Shown: one piece after another, positions 1 through 16,417 of the stretch
Layout of the letters: every line of letters starts with the position of its first letter
How positions within the stretch are numbered: position 1 is the stretch's first letter
Assembly: GCA_015499995.1 (NCBI GenBank)
Contig: JADNRV010000188.1
Coordinates: 30,916 to 94,915, forward strand
Reading direction: 5' to 3'
Length of the DNA stretch: 64,000 nucleotides
DNA from: Flammula alnicola
Taxonomy: Eukaryota > Basidiomycota > Agaricomycetes > Agaricales > Strophariaceae
Position numbers and translations under genes: made by a program
The notes under the pieces: model-generated
Told to the model about the DNA's origin: nothing
The model's input: the letters and a program-made list of their open reading frames with translations, nothing else
The model's database searches: none

Positions 1-1903
1 CCTGTAGGAAATATACCAGTAGCTCTATTGCGACTGTTTCAAGCCAACATATATCTCTGCCGAAAATCTTCCAGGATGGATGAAGACGGAAGGCCGCCCA
101 CTCATCGCCCATCACAATGCCGATGCCCCAGGATGTCGAAGCATCGACGAACAGATGTAAGTCCCTGGTAAGGCCGCGAGGACGCAACGTCCTCGAGACG
201 CCGATGACAGAGAGCGTATTGAGCCACCACTTGAGATCGGAGATGACCGATTTCGGTGGGAACAGTATGGCGTATTCTCTATCTGCTGGGAATTTTGACG
301 CGAAGTTCGAGAGGGAAGCTAGATGTGAGCGGCCCTCCCTGTAGACGAAGGAGATGTGACATAGGGACCCATGGATTTTCTGGACATCCAGTAGTTGGCA
401 AGGATGCCCAGAAAACCTATCGAGGAATTGTCGAACGCGGCCGAAGAACTTGAGGCGTTTTTCTTCGGGTAGGCTGACGAGTTTGTTTGGAATGTCCCAG
501 AGGAACCCAATGAACGTGGTGATGAATTTGAATGTGTCGTCTCCTTTTTCTTCGTGCCACGGAATGCCCAGGGGTGCGATGCGGCGAAGCATCTCGGCCT
601 TGTCGTAATCGTACGAGAAATCACCGTCGACGTAAATTCCGGTGGGTGAAGGGAATCGGAAGACATTTAGATCATCTTCGTACTTTGGTACAGGTGCGAC
701 ACCTTCTCCATCCCAAATGTCGACCGACGCATTCGACGCCATGCTAGAATTGCTGCTCGCGCAGGCGGCGCCGAATGGGTGTGCATGATCGATGAAAAAT
801 TGGCCCGGAAGCCCTTGGACAACCAACCAGGGCTTGTGCGATGGATGGACTGGGCATGTGCGATGGAATTTCGCGATGTCGAGGGTACAAACTTGTGTAC
901 CAGGGGGGGCGTGTGCGATCTGGTGAATGAATCGTGAGCTGTCTACTCGATGTGAGAGGCAGATGGTATGAAATAAATCATGAATCGTGATAGGAATAGA
1001 GCGCGGATGAGTCGCGAGATGTGGCATGAGCTGAATGGTATATCACCCAGAGGCGAGTAGATAGGGATGGAAATGTATATCGGTTTGTGAATATATCACG
1101 AAATAGCATGTATGTTGGCATGAGCCGGATGGAATGAACTCTCAAATGATCGAGTTCAAAGGTAACGCACGGATGCAAATACCCGAGCAATGTATAGATA
1201 ATGAATGAGAAACCAGACTCTCGCACTAAACGCAAAGAGTCGGTGCAATAGGGTGGATAGAAAGGGTAGATTCATAACGTTAAATAATGCTTACAATGTC
1301 AGCAACCTTTGACGTGGTGTCAAATCTTGTAGGGAAGTCTTCTTTGGCGATATGTGAATTGACGGAATTGTGTTCTTTGGTGCTCTTCGAGAGGTGTCGG
1401 CAGATTTGTACTTTGTCTGGAGCGCCACCTGGTTGGGGTTGAACAACTGCGATGATGGGAGATGCATGAAATGGGCCGCGGAGAGTGCGTTCGACTTCTT
1501 CGCGGGTGTATGGGCCTGACATGCGGCCGGATGTGACCTCTTTGCGAAGATAATCCTGGATGGTGTCAATATGTTCTAAAAAGGATGGATTATGTGGAAG
1601 GATGACTGTCTCTCGAATGTCGGGCATGCGCCCTAAAGGAAAACCGTGCAAAAGATTGTCTACGAGGAGAGGATAAAAGGAAGTAAGGCTATGTTTGTCT
1701 AAAAAGGATTCGAAAGCGGCTGCGTTATATGGGTGGATTATTCTAGAGAAAACGTCTTCGTGAAGGTGAATAGAAGGATCAAATTTCGGTCTATGGAAAA
1801 TAGAAGAGGAAAAGTCGGTATAAGTAAGGCGAGGTGGTTGCGAGGTGGCTAAGAATTCTTCAAACGTCGGAAGGGGGTGGGCAGCAGGTCCATGAGAATG
1901 CAT
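1..1903 (-). CDS. DIRS-like reverse transcriptase-RNase H, left-truncated by window, with a 375-nt intron
   Basis: Copies element RNA into DNA. The first exon (1903-1295, 203 codons) starts with a Met just inside the end of gag and carries the conserved upstream RT region (HASPIIAVVQPQ, CRHLSKSTKEHNSVNSH, FPTRFDTTSKVADI). A donor GTAAGC at 1294-1289 and an acceptor CACCAG ending at 920 define an intron of 375 nt. The second exon (919-1, still open at the edge) continues in phase with IAHAPPGTQVCTLDIAKFHR, HPFGAACASSNSS, the catalytic KYEDDLNVF, KIHGSLCHISF and an RNase H start LFVDASTSWGIGIVMGDEW. The join makes one uninterrupted frame, so the gap reads better as an intron than as damage. No frameshift or stop is visible otherwise. 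Confidence 0.8.
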
Positions 1904-2664
1904 GGTGGCCTTTTCCGCAGTAAGAACAGATGTGGGCGCGCTCGTCTTTGGGATGGGAGCATTCTGATCGATCGCCCTTGAGATTGAAACGGATGCAAAT
2001 TTCTTTGCTGTCGGGCGCTCGGAGAATTCGGTTGGAGTATTTCGCCCAGGTAGGTTTTCCGTCACTGGATTTTGCGGGCGTTGTGTCGTTAGAGTGGGAT
2101 AGGATGGTGTGGCCCCTCCGGGCGCATAAGATGCAGCAAGCGGGGAGGGGAGACTTCGAGCTGCCAGATGGAAAGGGAGAGGAGTTGGTGGATGAAGAGT
2201 AAGAGTTGCCTGGACGTGAGAACCGTCCGTTGCTGCCACCGCTACGAGGTGGGAAATTCTGCGATTTTCCCAGACCCTGCAAAACCTCGAGGGTGCGAGC
2301 CCATGTCTTGGCCTCGGATTTTGCGAGGGCATAAAGGTCGGCATAATGCGCGGCGTTGTATTCTTTCTTCTCACTCCGGAATTCTTGACGAAGTTCAAGC
2401 TCTAGAGACTTCCAGGCCTCGTATGTATCGTCTTTGTCAATCTGTGAATTAAAGAAATTAAAATGATCAGAGAACCACCCAGCAAAGCTGCCGGATGGTC
2501 CCTCCTTGTCTCGCTCTTGTTGAAATCTGTACATTTGCCAGCCGGCCTCTGACCACTGGCTGCATGTTAAAGATAGCTCAGCGCCGAGCTTGTTGGACAG
2601 CTTCGCGATGTCCAGAATTTTTAACCCTTTGGACATGCCGTCCAACGGGTTCGCTTTAACTGTA

Positions 2665-2704
2665 TCCAGCATTGAGTTAGTAGTCCCCTGTTATAACTCG
2701 ATCA
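2665..2704. repeat. Left target duplication and terminal inverted repeat
   Basis: The duplication tccagcattg occupies 2665-2674. The element then starts with agttagt, and from 2682 to 2704 follows the 23-bp core that matches the complement of 8188-8210 without mismatch. The outer seven bases match only partly (agtnann). Confidence 0.9.
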
Positions 2705-2881
2705 GATCTCGGGCAATCGGAAAGGTAAAAAAGCGGCGAAGTTAACGAGTTGGCTCAACTTGCGGCATTCTCCGACGCAGTGTTCTGAGTGACGTTTGAA
2801 CCGCCCTGCTCCCTGCGATACAGCTGAGGGGTTATCAATTTCTATGACACCTAACTACGCATGAATAGGATGAATATATTG

Positions 2882-5800
2882 CTATTTCCAATGATAAGTA
2901 GAATAGGACTGATCAATATGATAAAAAGAACTCGGGGAGCTGGATGTACTATGTTGTGGATCAGCATGGTAAATATCCTGAGCCGACAAGGAGCTGGGTG
3001 CATCCTGCTCTAACTCATAAGGGATGGTAGACTGATGTATTCTGGGATAAGGTGAGAAACGGTAGTTGGGTTCTATGTTGCGAATGACACCGGAGCTGTG
3101 AATGGTATTGGAAGTCAAGTTGGGTGGTGAACAAGAGGCTGACTGTCGGAATATGGTCTCTGAATCAGCCAGTTCAGAGTAATGATCATTCGGAAAAGAC
3201 AATGGATAATGTCGTAGGTGCCGAGGTTGTTGAACAAGAGGTATGTGTTGAACATCGGCAAGGCGTGCAATGTTTGAGGTGTTCCGTGACTGACTGGATG
3301 CCAACTGAAGATACGGAATTGATTCCGTTAGGAAAGGTGGTCGATGAGATGATTCCGGGTCCAGAGATTGACGACGAACTTGAGCTCTGCTGCTTGCAGG
3401 CGCACGAGATTGGTTTGGAGGGGCCGTTTTTGCCTTTTGCTTTGATTTTGAAGTGCGCTGCTGAGAAGAGGCTGGCCGAGTTTGTCAGTTCATATTTTGG
3501 GCATGACAAGTTCAGAAGGAATACTGTACCTTGTCGGCTAATGGAATAATGAGCTCGTCGATATTCAGTAGATTGTTGATCGCGAGAATGTATCCCGAAT
3601 GTTTGCTGAAGTAAAAGGCCGACCATAATTCGGAAATCATGCTGCAAGCCCCGCATAATCCCTCCAAGCAATGTCAAACCAATTCCATCTCGCATGATGT
3701 TTCGGTGCCCTTGCTCATTGCCATTGGTAGTCGGAGGCGACGCTAGCCATACTTCAAGTGGGATGAGGCTTCTTGGCTGGTAAATTGCTGGAAGGACAAA
3801 TTTCGCATCCAGTTTGTCTTTCAACCAAGCTAATGTTGGCATTGGTAAGTAAAATATTGATGATCATGAGGGGTAATTTGACCTCGAGCCTTTGGTCCTC
3901 CGGCATTGATGATTTCAAAGGCCTTTTCAATATCATGCATTTGCGACGAAGAAAGGCTGTACATTGCAGCAGCAACTTCGGGTGAGATGAACTTCCGAAT
4001 TTCGTGGATATTCCTCTTGAAATGGATGGTGCAAAGCCATAGAAAGCGTCGCAGGTGATCATAGGGTGTAAGATCCCGCAGCGGCCGCCTCACAGATTCC
4101 AATGAGCAAAATCCGTCGAGAGCTTCGCAAAGCTTTTGACAAAATCTACCAGCACCTGGTATAGAAGAGAGCGTGAAAGTTAGTCACATAGGAAACCATA
4201 AACTGTATTCATACCGAGAGCTTGTCCTTTATGTGCATCAGCAATCCATGTTCGAAATCTGTGTCCATGAATGTGATAAAACTGAACAGGGAGGCCAGTA
4301 TCCGCTTGCGCAATGTCAAATATGCGAGTGAAGAGAACGAGGTGGGCAGCAGCTGATTGTGAGGTTGTGAAAGCACGAGCACTAATGACCGCTTAATTAA
4401 AATGTCAGTAAACCACCCTGTATGCAAAAAAGAGGCCGAAGCTCATTACATTTTTTATAATGCACATCCCAGCTCTCCATTTCAAATTCCTGCCACTTGC
4501 CGTAAACACGCTTGAAAGAAGTATCAATTGACAAGTGCGCCGTCATAAGGAGATGCTTCGACATATCGTGCGACATGCAAATGATGAGTTCAAATTTTTT
4601 TCCGTCTTCGATATTGTGTATCTCCGCACATCTTACATATTGAGCAGCTGCAGGGAGAGCTTTGTGTTGCTCAGCGAGCAGCTGAGCACCTACAACATTG
4701 TAGAGTGAATGAAATTGATTGCCAGTATGGAAAAGAAGGCGAAATCGAATACCTTCAAAGCCAGTCCCTTTCGGAAAGTAGAGCTTCCGAAGTTGAAGGA
4801 TATGTCGACGAACGCGGTCTGCATTCCCAAGTGAGGGGTGTAAATCTGACAGTGATGGGTCAGATATTTCCGTCCATCGAAGATGCCTCCGCAAGCCAAT
4901 AATAAAGCCTGAATCAAGCAAAATTTTATGGGGCGTTGCATCAGCGAGTTTCCAGTCCAATTCAAGTAACAAACTGTCGAGAAGTTCAACAACTGGAGGA
5001 GGAGTTTTTACGGGAAAAGGATCAGGATGGGAATGAGGGCCTTGCGAGAGAATAACAATACGAGGACAGATTGATATGTCGTTTGGCGTGTAGATTGTAA
5101 ACTTGGTCTTGCAATTACTGGAACGATTTAACAAACCACGAGCCAGAGTTCCATCAGCATAGCGATGCCAGTTTGCTGCAAACTTATCAATGAAATGATC
5201 TATTAACATAAGCCTTTACTTACGACAAAGCTGCTTCTGTTCCGATGCTGATGCATGAAAAGAGCAGGGTGCAAGTGGTCCATAGCCATGTTCAAGGGCG
5301 CATCGCTCGAGGTTACTAGTGGTCAACACGTCATTTTGAAGAAGCGCGGTAAGATATTTCATGTCAAATTCTTGCAAGTTGCGCAGAATGAGATGTGAGG
5401 TGGAATCACTGCTACGAAATTCACATCTTTGAATAGTGTCAGCATGTTCAAAGCTATCATATTTTTGACAAAGAAAACTTACTGGAGATGTGGATGATTA
5501 TACTGGTCATAAGTTAGAATAAGTTTACCGCCACAATTTTCGGAACGGTGGTTATCTGCTTCGTTGTCATTACTATCCCTACCAAAATCAAGTTCCAATT
5601 CTTCGGCATGTCCAAAAGAGCATCGGGTTTCATTCACTGCACAATAAAAGGCGAGAGTCTTTAAAAAGACAGTCTCTTCTGGCATAACAGCACGAGATGC
5701 ATTCAACGTTGAAGAGCGACCATATTCACATGTTTTGACACCTTGACCTGGATTAAGATATGTGTAAGTTGCGAAGAAAGAACAAAGTAAAAAGTAAACT

Positions 5801-6290
5801 AACATGACGTCTGCAGCTTGTTGCACGATACCGGGTTTCCTTCGGAATCACATAGGAGGGTGCCACAAAACATATCAGTTACCCCACTATGTGAGCCGCC
5901 CAGAGAATATTGGATGCTGGTCTTCGGATGCTCAAAGTTGGCTGGATCAACAGCAAAACGGTGAGCAATGGTCATCTCGGAAGAAGTCCCTGACTCCGGA
6001 TATTCGACAATGGCACCTATCGGGTGGTCGATAATTGCACAAGCCCGCCGTTGTCTGTTGATGGTATTCATACCAGCTAAAATTTCGGATGAAGAAAATG
6101 GACGGGCAGGCAGGGCATGATATGGATACCTCCATGCACAAGATGGAGAAGTTGCTGGAGAAGGAAGGGGAGGCGGCACTGGCGTCGTAGGCACTGAAAT
6201 CACAGGGGTAAGTCCAGCATTTCTCAAGAGCTCGTTAGCTTGAGCCAGTGCTTGCTGCTGGACCACCGTTAGGGCCTCAGGACTAGACAT
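2882..6290 (-). CDS. Mutator-like DDE transposase, 8 exons, 1,006 aa
   Basis: Predicted exons (minus): 6290-5804, 5747-5483, 5426-5224, 5175-4450, 4391-4215, 4155-3883, 3829-3530, 3471-2882. They total 3,021 nt with GT-AG introns of 48-59 nt. The core is the segment HLSIDTSFKRVYGKWQEF, then FYHIHGHRFRTWIADAHKGQ, then LTPYDHLRRF, then SPPTTNGNEQGHRN. I read D about 536, D about 612 and E about 749 as the likely catalytic triad, the last inside a TNGNEQ motif resembling the E motif of Mutator-like transposases. The N-terminus is Pro/Ala-rich with no sure domain; the C-terminal about 200 residues are Ser/Pro/Gln-rich and look disordered. The family recurs in agaricomycetes as unannotated proteins. 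The role as transposase follows from the element ends and this triad; it is inference, not a database match. Confidence 0.8.
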
Positions 6291-6709
6291 AGGTCAGGAG
6301 CAGGTCAGGGCTTGAACGAGATCATATCCTGACGAAAAAAAGACGGTATCAAATCCTCAGGATGTTCGTCCCAATGTTCGACGATGTTCGACACAGTTGT
6401 AGTGCCCGAAGAAGCCTCAATTGAAGGCGCATCCAGCTTGTTGCCATAGATTTAACATTGTGAATGGGATCCTCATATTCGTTGAATTGACATAGTAGGC
6501 TTCTACGTATGCCGGGATACACTTATCAAAGTATAATAATTTGATCGAACTGCAAAAAAAAAAAAACAATTCAGTGAAGCAAAGAACCGAGGGATTCGCA
6601 GCACTGACCATCTATATCAATCATATGGAAAGATCGAGAAAAACTTTGGAACACATATAAGACACTCATTGAAACAGCAGAACAGTCAATTCACGCACCA
6701 AGTTCTAAC

Positions 6710-7793
6710 ATGTCTACTAAGAGGGACCTCGGCCTCTTCGATGAGCTCTCTATCCTCCAAAGGTCCACCGATGAACTTGCAGTTTGGTCCAACCTTGCAT
6801 TGGGAATGGTCATTGTAGCTTAGTAACTAACTACCTCCATTTTTTTTGGCATAATACTCACCGCTTTGAATGTTTAGCCCGATGTCGAGAGGCAAACGCA
6901 TTCAGCCAGATGGTCTTCTTGGCTGGATGGAACGTCGCGCTCTCATCTGGCTTTGCATCTGTGCTGCTGCTGCACAAACTGGCGAGGCACGATCCTGCCG
7001 TATCGTTGAAGCTCGGAATGGGAGGGTTTACGCATTTTGCTGCGAATATCCAACCAAGTGCAACTTTTTCGGTCAGTTGTCAAAGAATTTTTCATTTGTT
7101 TAATTACTCACGCCGACGTAGTCGATATTACCAGGGCACATGAGAAGGCCGAGTATGTATCTGAATACATATCGATGCCTACAAGCAGTCAGTAAATGTT
7201 TGGCAATTTATCGTTGTGGCCTTACTCACGATTTCATAGTTTCAAGCACCGTTCCCGACATGGAGGGTCTCCGCGAACGATTCCTCAATCGCGTTGCCCC
7301 TGTTGAGGTGCTTCCCTATTTCGAAGGCTATTTCGGTGAACATGAATCGATGTACCCTGGCTTAAAGCAATTGAGTGGTGGTTTCCTTGCTCTCGGCGCT
7401 GGTCCTGGACGTGGTAAGTTAGGAATGTTGATGAAAGTGACGCTGGAGCTTACCTGCAAGCCCATAGACAAAGGCAAGGGCGTCCTCCGCGTCCCGCGCT
7501 CGATTTCTGATGTCGCTGTCCGTTATTCGCCAACTCAAAAGACTCAGAAACAACGCACGGTATCAGTGTCCATTGAAGCCGGCCCTTCTCATCCTCGCGA
7601 AGACAGGAACAAAGAGCCCACTATCCTGTCCACCCGTGAATACAACCTGCTTGCTGATCTTGCCCGCGGTGATGGTATCGAGTACTCAGAGCGCGATGAC
7701 CTTTTTGAGGCTTGTGATCGTTGCGGATTGGTGTTCATGAGAAGCGCTATTAGGGCTCATATCCGGCTTTGTGTCGCAAAAAGGAGATTTTGA
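6710..7793 (+). CDS. Accessory zinc-finger-type protein of the Mutator-like element, 276 aa
   Basis: Predicted exons 6710-6808, 6906-7071, 7122-7187, 7240-7413, 7468-7793 (831 nt, in frame). Residues about 34-90 contain WLCIC, then a Cys, then NGRVYAFCCEYPTKCNFF, which resembles a GRF-type zinc finger (Cys, aromatic, Cys-x-FF). The C-terminus has CDRCGLVFMRSAIRAHIRLC, a C-x2-C-x12-H-x3-C zinc-knuckle-like pattern. The middle is basic and Ser/Arg-rich. The first intron is the least certain: its donor is GTCATT, and an alternative start is the Met at 6892. The gene lies inside the transposon, divergent from the transposase, so it could help target-site or end recognition or be captured cargo. 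Function unknown. Confidence 0.65.
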
Positions 7794-8187
7794 AGGGTGG
7801 TATATTCAAGTAGATTATGCGTACATAGACAAAAGAGTAGGTACCTGAAGGAGTGGAGTAGTTGAGTACCGAGTTACAGCATTTAATCCCAGAGAAGTGT
7901 TGATTGGACATACCTATGATAGAAAGAGAGCTACGCTCAACAGCTTCTGCACGAAAGAAATGTAGAATGTAAGTACATGCCGCACAGTGAAGGAGAACAC
8001 CATCGAGTGCTGCGTTCAACGTTGGGCCTGGCGGTTGGATTTCCACGACAACAGTCTCACGTGTCACAATTCATCACGCACAGACCTTGGGCAAGTGAAC
8101 TGATGAACTGGAAATGAACCGTCAAAGATGTCCGAGCTGAGCAGGATACTTGATTAGGGAATTGGCAGATCAAGATCTAAATCTGGG

Positions 8188-8228
8188 TGATCGAGTTATA
8201 ACAGGGGACTCATCACTGTCCAGCATTG
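8188..8228. repeat. Right terminal inverted repeat and target duplication
   Basis: The inverted copy of the 23-bp core is at 8188-8210, followed by a less conserved outer piece (8211-8218) and the second tccagcattg at 8219-8228. Reading frame continuity of the flanking gag across the two duplicates independently fixes these borders. Confidence 0.9.
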
Positions 8229-9079
8229 CCGCGCTGTCAATTATGTAACGCAGATTCTTGTTTAGAAAGAAAGGAAGAGGTATTGCGACGCAATCCTCTG
8301 TGTCGAACATAATTTGAGGGAAAATAATCGTAGCAGGTACACCTACAACTCGGGGTACAATATCTGCCCCGTTCATGCAGCGTCTCTTTGCCAATCTCGC
8401 CTCGAGCGATTTTTCGACAACGTCTGAAGAAGCAAGCAGTCTCTTCAATGATTGGCTCTCACCTTTGGTCTTCTGAATTCCCGCGAGCCATTTCGTCACG
8501 GAGATAGTCATGACATCTTTGTAATGCTCTCGGATGTTGTCATCCAGTAGATCGGATAGATCGTCTTCATCGATCGTGATCAGGGAGGCTATATCGGAGC
8601 CCTTGTTAGGATAATTGGCTGGATCGAGGGCGTTGTTCGCAGTTTTTGACATCCTGGAGATGTTAGCAAGTTCGATTTTTTTGTTTGTCTCGAGCTTGTT
8701 ATACAGAGATAATCCCTTGAGAATAATAGCTACCTCTGGGCTGATATGAGTACGAGATACTCTAGCAGCCGGCGGATCCGCTTGGGCAGCTTGCTCGTTG
8801 CCAGCTTGGTTGTTGTTGGCCTGAGTGGCATCAAGGGGAGCAGTCACTTCAGTCATGGATGAAAAGATGAGATTTTGAGAATATAAGTTAAGGGAGATGA
8901 GGAGTATCAGAAAAAGGAATCAAAAGAAATGCTATGGATGTCAAATAACTTGGGATGAGATTTTTTTCGCGTCGGAACAAATCTCAGAAGACGAAGAAGA
9001 GTTATTCTTCTTCGAAGACGAAATATTCTGATTAGATAATATACTGATTAGATCACGGTTGGTTCCGACGCTTTTCTTT

Positions 9080-12466: not shown

Positions 12467-15400
12467 TCAGTTGAACAGGCCGGCAGACTTCCAGTACTTG
12501 ACCCACAAGTGCGCCTGAGCATCTCCGATAGAAGGCAACTCCTTCATCGTCTTGCTTATGCCTTGCGCCTTAGTGGTCGAGAATTCGGCCATACCACCGC
12601 TCTCGTTGCCTTTCCTTTGGCCTGAGCGAAGAGCTGCATCAGCGTTGGAGGTGGCCTGGAAGAACTGCAAGAGTTTGATGGCGGGCTGATGGAAAGCGTC
12701 AGTGACAGGGATAAAGAAGGGTAATGGTATAATGGTATCGCTTACAATTTGCTTGATGTCCTCGTCTTTGGCACCAGTGGCGCGCGACTCGAGAAGCGAG
12801 AACCATTCCTGGACAGGGACGATGGGGAGCTTGCTTGAGACGACTCCCTCGGAAACGAGCCCGTCGTTGATGGCGGAGGCGAGGCTGTTGAAAGCAACGG
12901 GCCTAGGGTGGACGATGTTAAGAGCAGCTGGGGACTCGGAGCTTAAGGCGACGTCGATGATGCTCTGGGCGACACCGTCCATGGGGACCCATGAAGAGGT
13001 CTAGGGAAATGTGATCAGCAAACAGGACAAAGAATTCAAGAAAAAGTATCCTTACTCCGACCAAGGATGGAAGGGCATTCAGGGCAATACTGGACTTGAC
13101 GAGGATTGGCACCCAGTCAGTGATAGCCCATGCACCGTTGGGTTTACCTCCCGCAATCTGGCCGACCCTGAACGAAGTGGCCTTGATTCCGCTCTGTGAC
13201 AGAATCTGTAGCAGATAATCATTGTTAGAACAGGTAAAGTCAACCTAAAAATGATAATACAGACCCTTTCTGTGACATATTTGGACTCTCCGTAACCAGT
13301 ACCGACGGAGTACTGAGCATCCAAGAGGACTTCCTCGGGGTATGGTCCTCGGCTCCTGTCCCATGAAATACCGGAAGCGACGGAAGAGGTGAACATGAAC
13401 TTCACGGAGGATCCGTAGGAGCTTGCGCGCGCAAGGTCAACAAGGTTGCGAGTACCACGAACATTGGGTTCGAAGGAGGCAAGCGACAAGTTGAAGTCCA
13501 ACCTCCAGGCGGTGTGGATGATGACGGTGATGTTGTTGAGCAGCTATAAAATCATGTTATTGAAGTTACTGGATTCAAAGAAGAGAAAAAAAGACTAACC
13601 TCTTGGTAGACCTCCTTGGAAAGTCCCAAATTCTTCTGGGTGATATCACCTTCCAAGAACACCAACTTCTCGGACGACAGAAGCCCGGTGTCGAAACCTT
13701 TATCAGTGAAGCGCTCGGTATGCTTCGAGAGAGGGTTTCCTGAGACACGGTTGAGGGCGTAGATCTTGGTGACCGAAGGGTCGCGCAATAGAGTCTCCGT
13801 AATCTGAGATCCCAGGTTTCCGGTGGAACCGGTGATAAGCACCTGGGTTCCGTTTGCAGCAACTCCAGCGGAGATGGGCGCCGAGAGACCAGTGTTGTAT
13901 TTGGCAATCATTTCCTCGACGACATCTGACCTGTTGGCTGACGCTTTGACACTGTCTGGGTCGATAACGGTTGCGACGAGGAACTCCGAGAGACTCTCGA
14001 TGGTGGGGTGCTGGTAAATCGTGTTCTGAGAAACAAACTCGGCTGCCTTGGCGGTGTCTTCGTCGGATTGCAAAGCGCCCACAATGCGGCGGCGGAGAAT
14101 GGTTGCGCCCAAACTAGAGAAAAACTAGGTGAATATCGGCATTACGGGACAGCTAGCTGCTAATTACCTGTCCATCCCTTGTTCGAACAAGTCTCCCGTG
14201 ATGCTGAAAGTGATATCAGGGAGGACGTCTTCGATTTGCTCCTTCAACCATTTGTCGGTTTCTTCCTTCGTCCAGGCCGGGGGAGGAGGGACAGCTTCAG
14301 CACCAGCCGCAGATTCAATCGTGGCATAGCTACAAGGGAAATTCAGCGGGGGAGTTTGAGTAGTAACGCAGGAGACCTACAGAGCCTCGATATCGTCATT
14401 GTACACGGTCAATGCAGCCTTCCTCATGACTGTGCCCTTTCCAGCGCGGGGAAGAGGCCTGTTGGGGTCGGTAATGAGGATCAATTCCTTGAAGACCTTG
14501 CTGAAGGCTGGTGCAACACGGTTGGCCTCTTCGACGATCGGCCTGCTTCGAATGAGTATAATAAACAACCGAGTTGGGAAGAAATATACTCACCAGACCA
14601 AGTTTCGTGCCTTGATCACCTCAGCCTCGTTCGAGACATCGACAGCGTACGGTGGCTTAAGTTCAATGAGGACTCCAGGTTGGTCGTGCTCGCGTCCAAA
14701 CATGATGACGCCCATGACGCTGTAGAGACTGTCAGCACAGAGTGAATCAATAGTGAAGAAGTAAACGCACTATGGGCTGTTCGAGATGATGTTCTCCATT
14801 GGCGCCGGGACAGTCTTCTCTCCGGAAGTGTGGATGATCACATCGTCCTTCCTTCCAACGCTATGATATGCGTCAATAATCGAACGCAGAAGATAGAGAA
14901 ATGAGGAACGTACATCCTCCAGAACCCTGGCACAGTCGGGTGCGGGATGAACAAGTCGGAAGTGGCGTACCCCTTCTCGTCACCCATGTTCTCAACGGAG
15001 ACCTGGTGGAACTCGTTCGTCTGAATGGGAGTATTAGGGATTAAGACACAAGGAATTCAAGGATCTACGTACCAAGAACTGGCACTCAAAGCTACCATCG
15101 CCTTGGGGTTCCCAACGAACATTAAGGCGCTCGTCAAGAGCAAACCACTCCCAGTCATTCTCGCCTCCAGGTCTGCGCGCCATGTAGGTCGGGCCACCGA
15201 ATTCTGTTCCGCCGTAGATAGGAGCAAGCGTGACTCCTGCACTGGTCATAAAGTTTCCGAGCTTGGTAGGAACGGATCCTCCGGAGTAGCCCTAAGGAAG
15301 GAAGGACTGAGACACACGGAGCTGGAAAAAAATCGATACGAACATACCACCATCTTCAAAGTAGCAAGGAAATCGACAGATTCTTTATCTTGAGCCCAAA

Positions 15401-16417
15401 TTGCCAAAAGAGTAGGGATAGTGATGAGGGACATGGCCTTGGTCCTTCGGAGATGGTCGATGATGTTGTCTGGGGTAGGCATGATGGGGAGCATCGAAGG
15501 AGATGTAGCTACGGGAGGGTACAGGATGACAGGGCTCAAAGCATATGTCGCGTGGATGATACTTGCGATGACACCCAAAGTGTGGAATGGCGGAAGGTGC
15601 ATGCAACCAATGCTCCAGCCAGACATTTCAGGCATCGGCGCTAAATTTAACAGATGAATATAAACCCCCAACTCTGACAGAAGTATGGACTCACGGAAAG
15701 AAGCCCAGTGACATATAATCCTGAAAGTCTCCTTGATAGACTTCGGAAAACCAGTACTCCCAGAAGAGTGCAAGTAGAGCAAGGCGTCATCCAGGGCAGG
15801 ACGAACTGCGACCTTCGGATATTCCTCGAAAGGATCCTCTGGCTTCTCGTGTCCAAGCTTGGGGAAGATCTTGGACAGAGGTGGCATCTCGAGAACCTCT
15901 AATGCGAATTCAGGAGAGTCCTTAGCGAGGTCGGCCTTGATTTCAGACACGAGTGTCTTGAGTGTCTCTTGCGTGGTGAGCAGCTTGTGGCAGTTGACTT
16001 CCTTGAGCATCTTGATGATGGCAGGTGCTATGTTACGAGGAGACATGAGGAATGGCTGCAGGGGGAGGCCTTGTTAGACGAATTCATAGAGAACACGATT
16101 GTTACTTACAACTACACCTCCCCTCATTAAGCCCAAAGAGACGGCATGATACAAGAGACTGTCTGAGAGGGCAACGACTGCGATGATCTCTCCTTCCGGG
16201 CCCTGGCGTCCTGGGCGGAAATAGTGGGCTACTCGATCGGCCGCACGACGGAATTCGAAGTAAGATATATTGGTGATATCCGATGCTCCGTCTTCATGGA
16301 ACGAGTAGAGTGGGTATTGGGGTTGTGCTTGGCGTGGAAGTCGAAGACTTCTGGCAAGGTGACCGAGCCGTCCGTAGGAGGAATAACACCGTCTGCAGCG
16401 AAAGTTAACTTCGACAT
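12467..16417 (-). CDS. NRPS-like adenylation-thiolation-reductase enzyme (carboxylic acid reductase type), one apparent frameshift
   Basis: About 15 exons. Order: adenylation domain (LPEVFDFHAKHNP at the start, ATP loop YLHSSGSTGFPKSI, YGGTEFGGP, GRKDDVIIHTSGEKTVP), carrier domain with the phosphopantetheine serine in DLFEQGMDSLGAT, then a Rossmann thioester reductase (ITGSTGNLGSQI, KFMFTSSVASG, catalytic YGESKYVTER). Such enzymes activate a carboxylic acid, load it on the carrier arm and release it reductively as an aldehyde. No condensation domain. All splice joints downstream of the first exon keep frame, but at 16318-16321 a run of four G on the plus strand must have been five for HAKHNP to join QYPLYSFHED. 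Either an assembly error or an inactivating change. Substrate not predictable from the sequence. Confidence 0.85.

Follow-up and report, generated by a model that had tools for sequence, protein, structure and literature searches.

The window analyzed here is a 64,000-nucleotide stretch of the Flammula alnicola genome (GenBank assembly GCA_015499995.1, contig JADNRV010000188.1, positions 30,916 to 94,915 of the forward strand). We consider it highly probable that positions 2674-8218 of this window are a complete two-gene DNA transposon that interrupts gag in a tyrosine-recombinase retrotransposon and is likely moved by cut-and-paste through its own predicted Asp-Asp-Glu (DDE) transposase of the Mutator/hAT type. 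The element is real and well defined: its borders, inverted ends, open genes, and the matching empty sites are all present, in line with an earlier note that had read the window's letters as a complete Mutator-like element in a DIRS gag.

Borders and target-site duplication of the element

The features that delimit the element are as follows.

2665..2673, unstranded: left copy of the target-site duplication TCCAGCATT (direct repeat and 9-bp rule, 5/5 complete copies)
2674..8218, unstranded: complete transposon, 5,545 bp, 5'-GAGTTAGTAGTC...GACTCATCACTG-3' (inverted ends, copies, empty sites)
8219..8227, unstranded: right copy of the target-site duplication (direct repeat and 9-bp rule)
2674..2704, plus strand: transposase-side terminal inverted repeat, perfect core 2682-2704
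8188..8218, minus strand: accessory-gene-side terminal inverted repeat, perfect core 8188-8210, outer 12 bases CAGTGATGAGTC

The direct repeat TCCAGCATTG is present at 2665-2674 and 8219-8228, and the earlier note had taken all 10 bp as the duplication and called the element, starting at 2675, defined to the base. The flanks of a short relative, C19, separate the tenth base, since the base after GTCATTTAC is G at one end and A at the other. Because these flanks differ at the tenth base, the G is assigned to the element, a 10-bp duplication is rejected, and the tenth matching base of the window repeat is a coincidence. After this correction the left border lies one base further out, at 2674 and not 2675, which leaves an element of 5,545 bp with the 9-bp duplication TCCAGCATT. 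Since a one-base border shift leaves the empty-site product unchanged, the gag frame discussed below is unchanged too.

Duplications of 9 bp also flank C457 (CCTTGTGTT), C8 (CTGCCAGCA), and C1 (AGAGAGAAA), so that the rule is kept in all five complete copies delimited in the genome (the window element, C19, C457, C8, and C1); a consensus among the five duplicated sequences was not evident. Not counted among these five are the one-ended sites (C557, C161, C712, and C71), C323, which is interrupted, and several fragments (C135, C384, C690, and C238). By chance, 9 bp would match at a given fixed position with a probability of 4e-6. A search with the 10-mer itself returned 257 places and was uninformative.

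Inverted ends and relatives elsewhere in the genome

The ends of the element (2675-2704 and 8188-8217) are 90% complementary over 30 nt and hold the perfect 23-bp core that the earlier note had reported (2682-2704 and 8188-8210). With up to three mismatches, this core was found at 9 places in the 74.4-Mb genome, 2 of them the window element's own, and at 0 places with the reversed control; a general core pattern was found at 11 places, all at sites or remnants of this family (control 0). Similar tips recur, each pair with its own duplication, at four other places (C19, C457, C8, and C1).

All five complete copies begin with GAGT and end with CACTG, and in all five the outer ends are unlike each other (GAGT..GTAGTC at one end, CAGTGATGAGTC at the other). 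The transposase-side tip is GAGTTAGTAGTC in the window element, C19, and C457 and GAGTATGTAGTC in C8 and C1, and the other tip is CAGTGATGAGTC throughout. Further inward, the window element has the core CCCTGTTATAACTCGAT at either end, C19 and C457 have it with a single-base difference at one of their ends, and C8 and C1 have GATTGGTATAAGTCGAT at either end. The core has thus changed in step at the two ends, with the outer bases remaining end-specific. The inverted repeats measure ∼31 bp in the window element and 94-111 bp in C8 and C1.

When the genome was searched for further copies, as the earlier note had proposed, the full-length element matched only itself, and its tips were recovered in both short and long relatives. 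Of the short elements, C19 measures 706 bp and C457 737 bp; their mutual identity is 93%, and they have only the tips in common with the window element. These ∼0.7-kb copies lack a long frame, the longest in one of them being 74 codons. The long relatives C8 and C1 (∼6.3 kb), 98.5% identical in an alignment of 6,366 bp, lie at different sites with different 9-bp duplications, which argues for more than one movement of the family. A further relative with both genes (L039, C323:343300-353200) has its transposase pieces ∼6 kb apart, with a 583-codon frame between them.

Single tips were also seen. At C712 (L037:4899-4951) a tip GAGTTAGTAGTC stands alone; its core is intermediate, and it abuts its own inverted copy in an imperfect 44-bp palindrome. 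The one-ended, altered tips GATTCGGAGTC and GATTCAGAGTC of C557 (L035:4942-5120) and C161 (L036:4905-4952) occupy matching places in two ∼10-kb loci that are 95-98% identical, and they are likely old remnants or parts of a tip-carrying repeat. Scans of viral contigs (56 pattern matches) and prokaryote contigs (42) yielded 0 confirmed relatives in either. No description of the element family was found in the literature searched; Repbase and a 2017 survey of fungal cut-and-paste transposons lay outside that search.

The interrupted gag gene and its empty sites

8219..8856, minus strand: host gag, 5' part (frames and empty-site comparison)
1860..2664, minus strand: host gag, 3' part (frames and empty-site comparison)

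When the insert and one copy of the repeat are removed, the host gag reads continuously for 480 residues plus a stop, confirming the 481 codons given in the earlier note. The search for gag copies without the insert recovered five close copies (C479, C771, C224, C271, and C667; 96-97% identity over the upstream part) and three more at 69-70%. Each of the five carries one TCCAGCATTG, through which its sequence runs without an insert. Their identity to the joined flanks is 94.6-95.2% by blastn and 91.9-92.5% in a multiple alignment that includes the distant copies, and a stop-free gag of 480 codons is found in all five as well as in the window copy with its flanks joined. The three distant copies differ at the insertion site and are uninformative.

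As to the age of the landing, the changes private to the host gag were counted against four other copies (L045 was omitted, being 99.97% identical to L044). There are 16 such changes, 11 silent and 5 replacing, and the observed silent share exceeds the 28% expected under neutrality (p = 0.0009); the four other copies pooled gave 36 silent and 18 replacing changes. This silent excess, shared with the pooled copies, suggests that a good part of the changes predate the break and arose under selection. The private branch spans 16 of 1440 sites, or 1.1%, and so bounds the age of the insertion. The landing in gag is thus likely recent, to judge from this pattern of change, which supports the recent movement proposed in the earlier note on grounds independent of the open frames used there.

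Predicted transposase and accessory genes

The predicted genes and their key positions are listed below.

2882..6290, minus strand: predicted transposase gene, 1006 aa, eight exons (6290-5804, 5747-5483, 5426-5224, 5175-4450, 4391-4215, 4155-3883, 3829-3530, 3471-2882), hand-made model
4523..4525, minus strand: first predicted catalytic Asp, D536 (core alignment)
4237..4239, minus strand: second predicted catalytic Asp, D612 (core alignment)
4022..4033, minus strand: CxxH motif, C661/H664 (core alignment)
3747..3749, minus strand: conserved Trp, W738 (core alignment)
3714..3716, minus strand: predicted catalytic Glu, E749 (core alignment)
6710..7793, plus strand: predicted accessory gene, 290 aa, five exons (6710-6822, 6878-7071, 7122-7187, 7240-7413, 7468-7793), hand-made model
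6954..7070, plus strand: C-x-C-x25-C-x6-C, then FF; the four Cys align in 3/3 sequences (window, C8, C323)
7713..7793, plus strand: C-terminal C-x2-C...H-x3-C, putative zinc finger (window and C8 copies; C323 has lost part of it)

Both predicted multi-exon frames are without stops, as the earlier note had held for the genes of the element. The seven transposase introns (48-59 nt) were picked by hand as GT-AG, so that their GT-AG form is not independent evidence, and the introns of the accessory gene (50-55 nt) were picked in the same way.

The D-D-CxxH-W-E residues of the transposase are invariant in the three cores compared, the other two of which are 60% and 38% identical to that of the window. 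Identity with the C8 and C1 transposases is 34% in the N-terminal part and 50-54% in the remainder, and further relatives are found in C323 (interrupted) and at L067 on C8 (38% in the core). A Pfam hint of Lin-15B (E 0.02-0.04) was below the cut-off and was not used, and Doublecortin matches in a structure-sequence search (E about 1) were put down to chance.

The accessory gene is divergent from the transposase gene. A reading of it in the 6775-7143 frame was rejected because the similarity to the C323 relative lies in the other frame (PMSRGKRI...), and with the frame fixed by this relative, introns could be placed throughout the gene. The predicted protein is 50% identical to its C323 counterpart over 208 aa, and its comparison with C8 gave a Smith-Waterman score of 95 (maximum of 56 in 1000 shuffles). 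A protein search with a 223-residue frame found only C323 and C71 besides the window; the similarity to C8 and C1 required direct comparison. The gene is conserved in relatives whose transposases are ∼50% identical. In the alignment of the window, C8, and C323 proteins, for which the C8 and C323 sequences were cut by hand, the four-Cys spacing is wider in C8 than in the window. We take this four-Cys layout, judged by eye, to resemble a GRF zinc finger, and it gave no Pfam match.

Class membership and alternative explanations

Published descriptions give target-site duplications of 8-11 bp for Mutator-like elements (MULEs) (PMC6446971), of 7 or 8 bp for Kyakuja, Dileera, and Zisupton (KDZ) elements, and of usually 8 bp, with a range of 5 to 8 bp, for hAT elements (PMC12730594). 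The 9-bp duplication seen in all five complete copies falls within the MULE range. Two more MULE traits are present, namely inverted ends common to full and short copies, which are short here (∼31 bp), and a D-D-E triad with CxxH and W between the second D and E (3/3 cores), the latter not specific to MULEs because CxxH and W are common to MULE and hAT transposases (PMC5225508). In Muta1, a tested MULE, changing any of D214, D283, H307, W401, or E419 to alanine abolished transposition or nearly so (PMC5225508). The hAT class was rejected on the duplication length (9 bp in 5/5) and on the lack of a Pfam hAT match. KDZ was excluded by sequence, as neither the element nor its C8, C1, and C323 relatives are among the at least 119 KDZ matches (PF18758) listed in the genome, several of which share the same score, and its duplications are 9 bp, not 7-8 bp. 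A KDZ profile comparison was also empty, in a weak test that used longest frames as its KDZ rows, a single one of which clearly holds the core. We conclude with good confidence that the element works like a MULE, and with less confidence that it is one by descent.

Several results weigh against the main reading of the element. Neither the whole transposase nor its core matched the Pfam MULE model (PF10551), and the family is not among the at least 15 PF10551 matches listed in the genome, 13 of them over the cut-off. Comparison by hhalign with four MULE proteins of the same genome gave E values of about 0.5-0.6; this was a weak test, in which two MULE groups matched each other at only 3e-4 and the profiles had little depth, with 3 of 4 rows used. 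Thus, of the name Mutator-like given in the earlier note, duplication length, ends, and catalytic signature bear it out, and the Pfam and profile comparisons do not. The structure-sequence search returned no match to a relevant solved structure, both gene models were made by hand from sequence alone, and no second full-length copy of the insert was found in the genome among all 8 search candidates scored, so that the insertion is not datable by comparing copies. As to the gag changes, their number is small (16) and the pattern is uneven among copies, L047 alone having 2 silent and 8 replacing. By exact calculation, not a Poisson approximation, up to ∼8 of the 16 could be neutral if the rest resemble the pooled copies, and up to ∼11 if the rest were all silent (5% limits).

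These points bear on three other explanations. The element could belong to a DDE transposon lineage separate from the Mutator-like one, with the 9-bp duplication and the D-D-CxxH-W-E signature common through a wider MULE/hAT-like group. The missing Pfam MULE and KDZ matches, the empty comparisons with profiles from the same genome, and the lack of confirmed relatives in the viral and prokaryote contigs scanned speak for this; we nevertheless regard it as rather unlikely, given that the profiles were shallow with a weak positive control, that longest frames served as the KDZ rows, with the core clear in only one, and that 9-bp duplications together with this signature are MULE traits (PMC6446971, PMC5225508). 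It is quite improbable that the insertion is old and inactive, its genes open by chance or one of them serving the host: a single full-length copy and only two near-identical long relatives would suit such an element, but the two stop-free multi-exon frames, the intact tips, the exact 9-bp duplication, a pattern of gag change that still reflects selection, and the short private gag branch would not. That the repeat, inverted ends, and gag continuity are products of chance or of an assembly join has a negligible probability. A single assembly is indeed the basis of the analysis, but the low chance of the 9-bp match, the five empty sites, and above all the same kind of tips with their own duplications in four other places, a recurrence that already refutes it, argue against this explanation.

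A possible mechanism of transposition

If the element is a cut-and-paste transposon of the Mutator/hAT type, its transposase would bind the core common to the two inverted repeats and so pair the ends. It would then cut both tips and join them to target strands staggered by 9 bases, and repair of this stagger would create the duplication. The 290-residue partner with its two Cys clusters may bind DNA and help either to recognize the ends or to assemble the proteins. The outer 12 bases, which differ between the ends, could let the machinery distinguish one end from the other. The ∼0.7-kb copies, which have no long frame, would have moved in trans. The insertion breaks the gag of a single retrotransposon copy, and this landing place is likely harmless.

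Comparison with known systems

Mutyl of Yarrowia lipolytica resembles the element in being fungal, in its 9-10 bp duplications and short (22 bp) inverted repeats, and in having two genes; it belongs to MULE group 35, and its second gene, mutB, is described as DNA-binding (PMC6446971). Mutyl is a MULE by transposase phylogeny, whereas the transposase described here has no Pfam MULE match. The orientation of mutB is given as the same in the text and as antisense in the table of that source, and the second gene of our element is divergent, a comparison made by description. MuDR of maize likewise has two genes, a transposase and a second protein of unknown function (PMC6446971; also compared by description); in distinction to it, the second gene here is kept in relatives with ∼50% identical transposases and encodes two Cys clusters.

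Muta1 of Aedes aegypti shares with the element the D-D-CxxH-W-E order, 8-9 bp duplications, and short non-autonomous copies with only the ends in common (PMC5225508). The second D and E are 136 residues apart in Muta1 and 137 here, whereas other spacings differ (D to D, 76 here versus 69; second D to H, 52 versus 24; W to E, 11 versus 18). Muta1 is also smaller, with 3.2 kb, 145-bp repeats, and one 504-aa gene, compared with 5.5 kb, ∼31-bp ends, and a 1006-aa transposase plus a second gene (PMC5225508). KDZ elements are, like ours, DNA transposons of mushrooms (PMC12730594), from which it differs in duplication length and in the lack of a listed KDZ match, as described above.

The transposase is of a type that PF10551, the standard database model of Mutator-like elements and the profile used to seek autonomous MULEs in mushrooms, does not recognize. 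In the Marasmius oreades genome paper, widespread short MULE-like insertions were seen and their sources then sought with PF10551 (PMC8290104). We tentatively raise the idea that the family forms its own fungal DDE lineage outside the recognized MULE and KDZ families. Its marks would be the 9-bp duplication, a transposase that is large and encoded in several exons, a divergently oriented partner gene that is obligate and has two Cys clusters, a core that changes in step, and end-specific outer 12 bases. In that case the family would act in mushrooms as an autonomous but hidden source of short MULE-like copies, one untraceable by a PF10551 search. With a base-exact full element, empty sites, short copies that carry the same tips, and a conserved second gene, this possible two-protein, end-specific system is directly testable.

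Identity of the host retrotransposon and neighboring features

2..1042, minus strand, extending beyond the window start: host reverse transcriptase (RT)/RNase H frame (motif PKYEDDLN by eye; no Pfam match)

On the minus strand, the host carries gag, RT/RNase H, and a tyrosine recombinase, in that order. The RT gave no Pfam match and was recognized by its motif alone, and the recombinase matched PF00589 below the cut-off (E 9e-4 and 2e-3). No Pfam Dam match to a methyltransferase was found in the frames tested, including 6 of the 25 listed frames of copy L068, a weak negative because Pfam missed the RT too. The retrotransposon ends were set by shared sequence, and with ends so set no split repeats or long inverted ends were found, the tips having only a 10-bp inverted match (E 0.95).

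DIRS elements carry a methyltransferase and inverted terminal repeats, according to PMC3783388, in which fungal Ngaro elements are nearly confined to Basidiomycota and most RepBase elements labeled DIRS are said to belong to Ngaro. Ngaro elements are characterized by gag, RT, RNase H, and tyrosine recombinase without a methyltransferase, and by A-B-A-B split repeats. The gene order and recombinase of the host fit Ngaro, and since no methyltransferase match was found, Ngaro fits better than DIRS. Insertion in a gag gene, as stated in the earlier note, is confirmed, and its DIRS label is doubtful; Ngaro appears the better, if provisional, name from these frames.

The same host retrotransposon copy carries, outside the window, a second insert of 906 bp (L051:4842-5747, C99:26841-27746) with perfect 178-bp inverted ends and the 8-bp duplication TTTGTGCC, and the corresponding empty site is found in copy L068. 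Elsewhere in the window, frames on the minus strand of 12467-16073 resemble, by eye, an adenylation enzyme (HSSGSTGFPKS) and a short-chain reductase (TGSTGNLGS).

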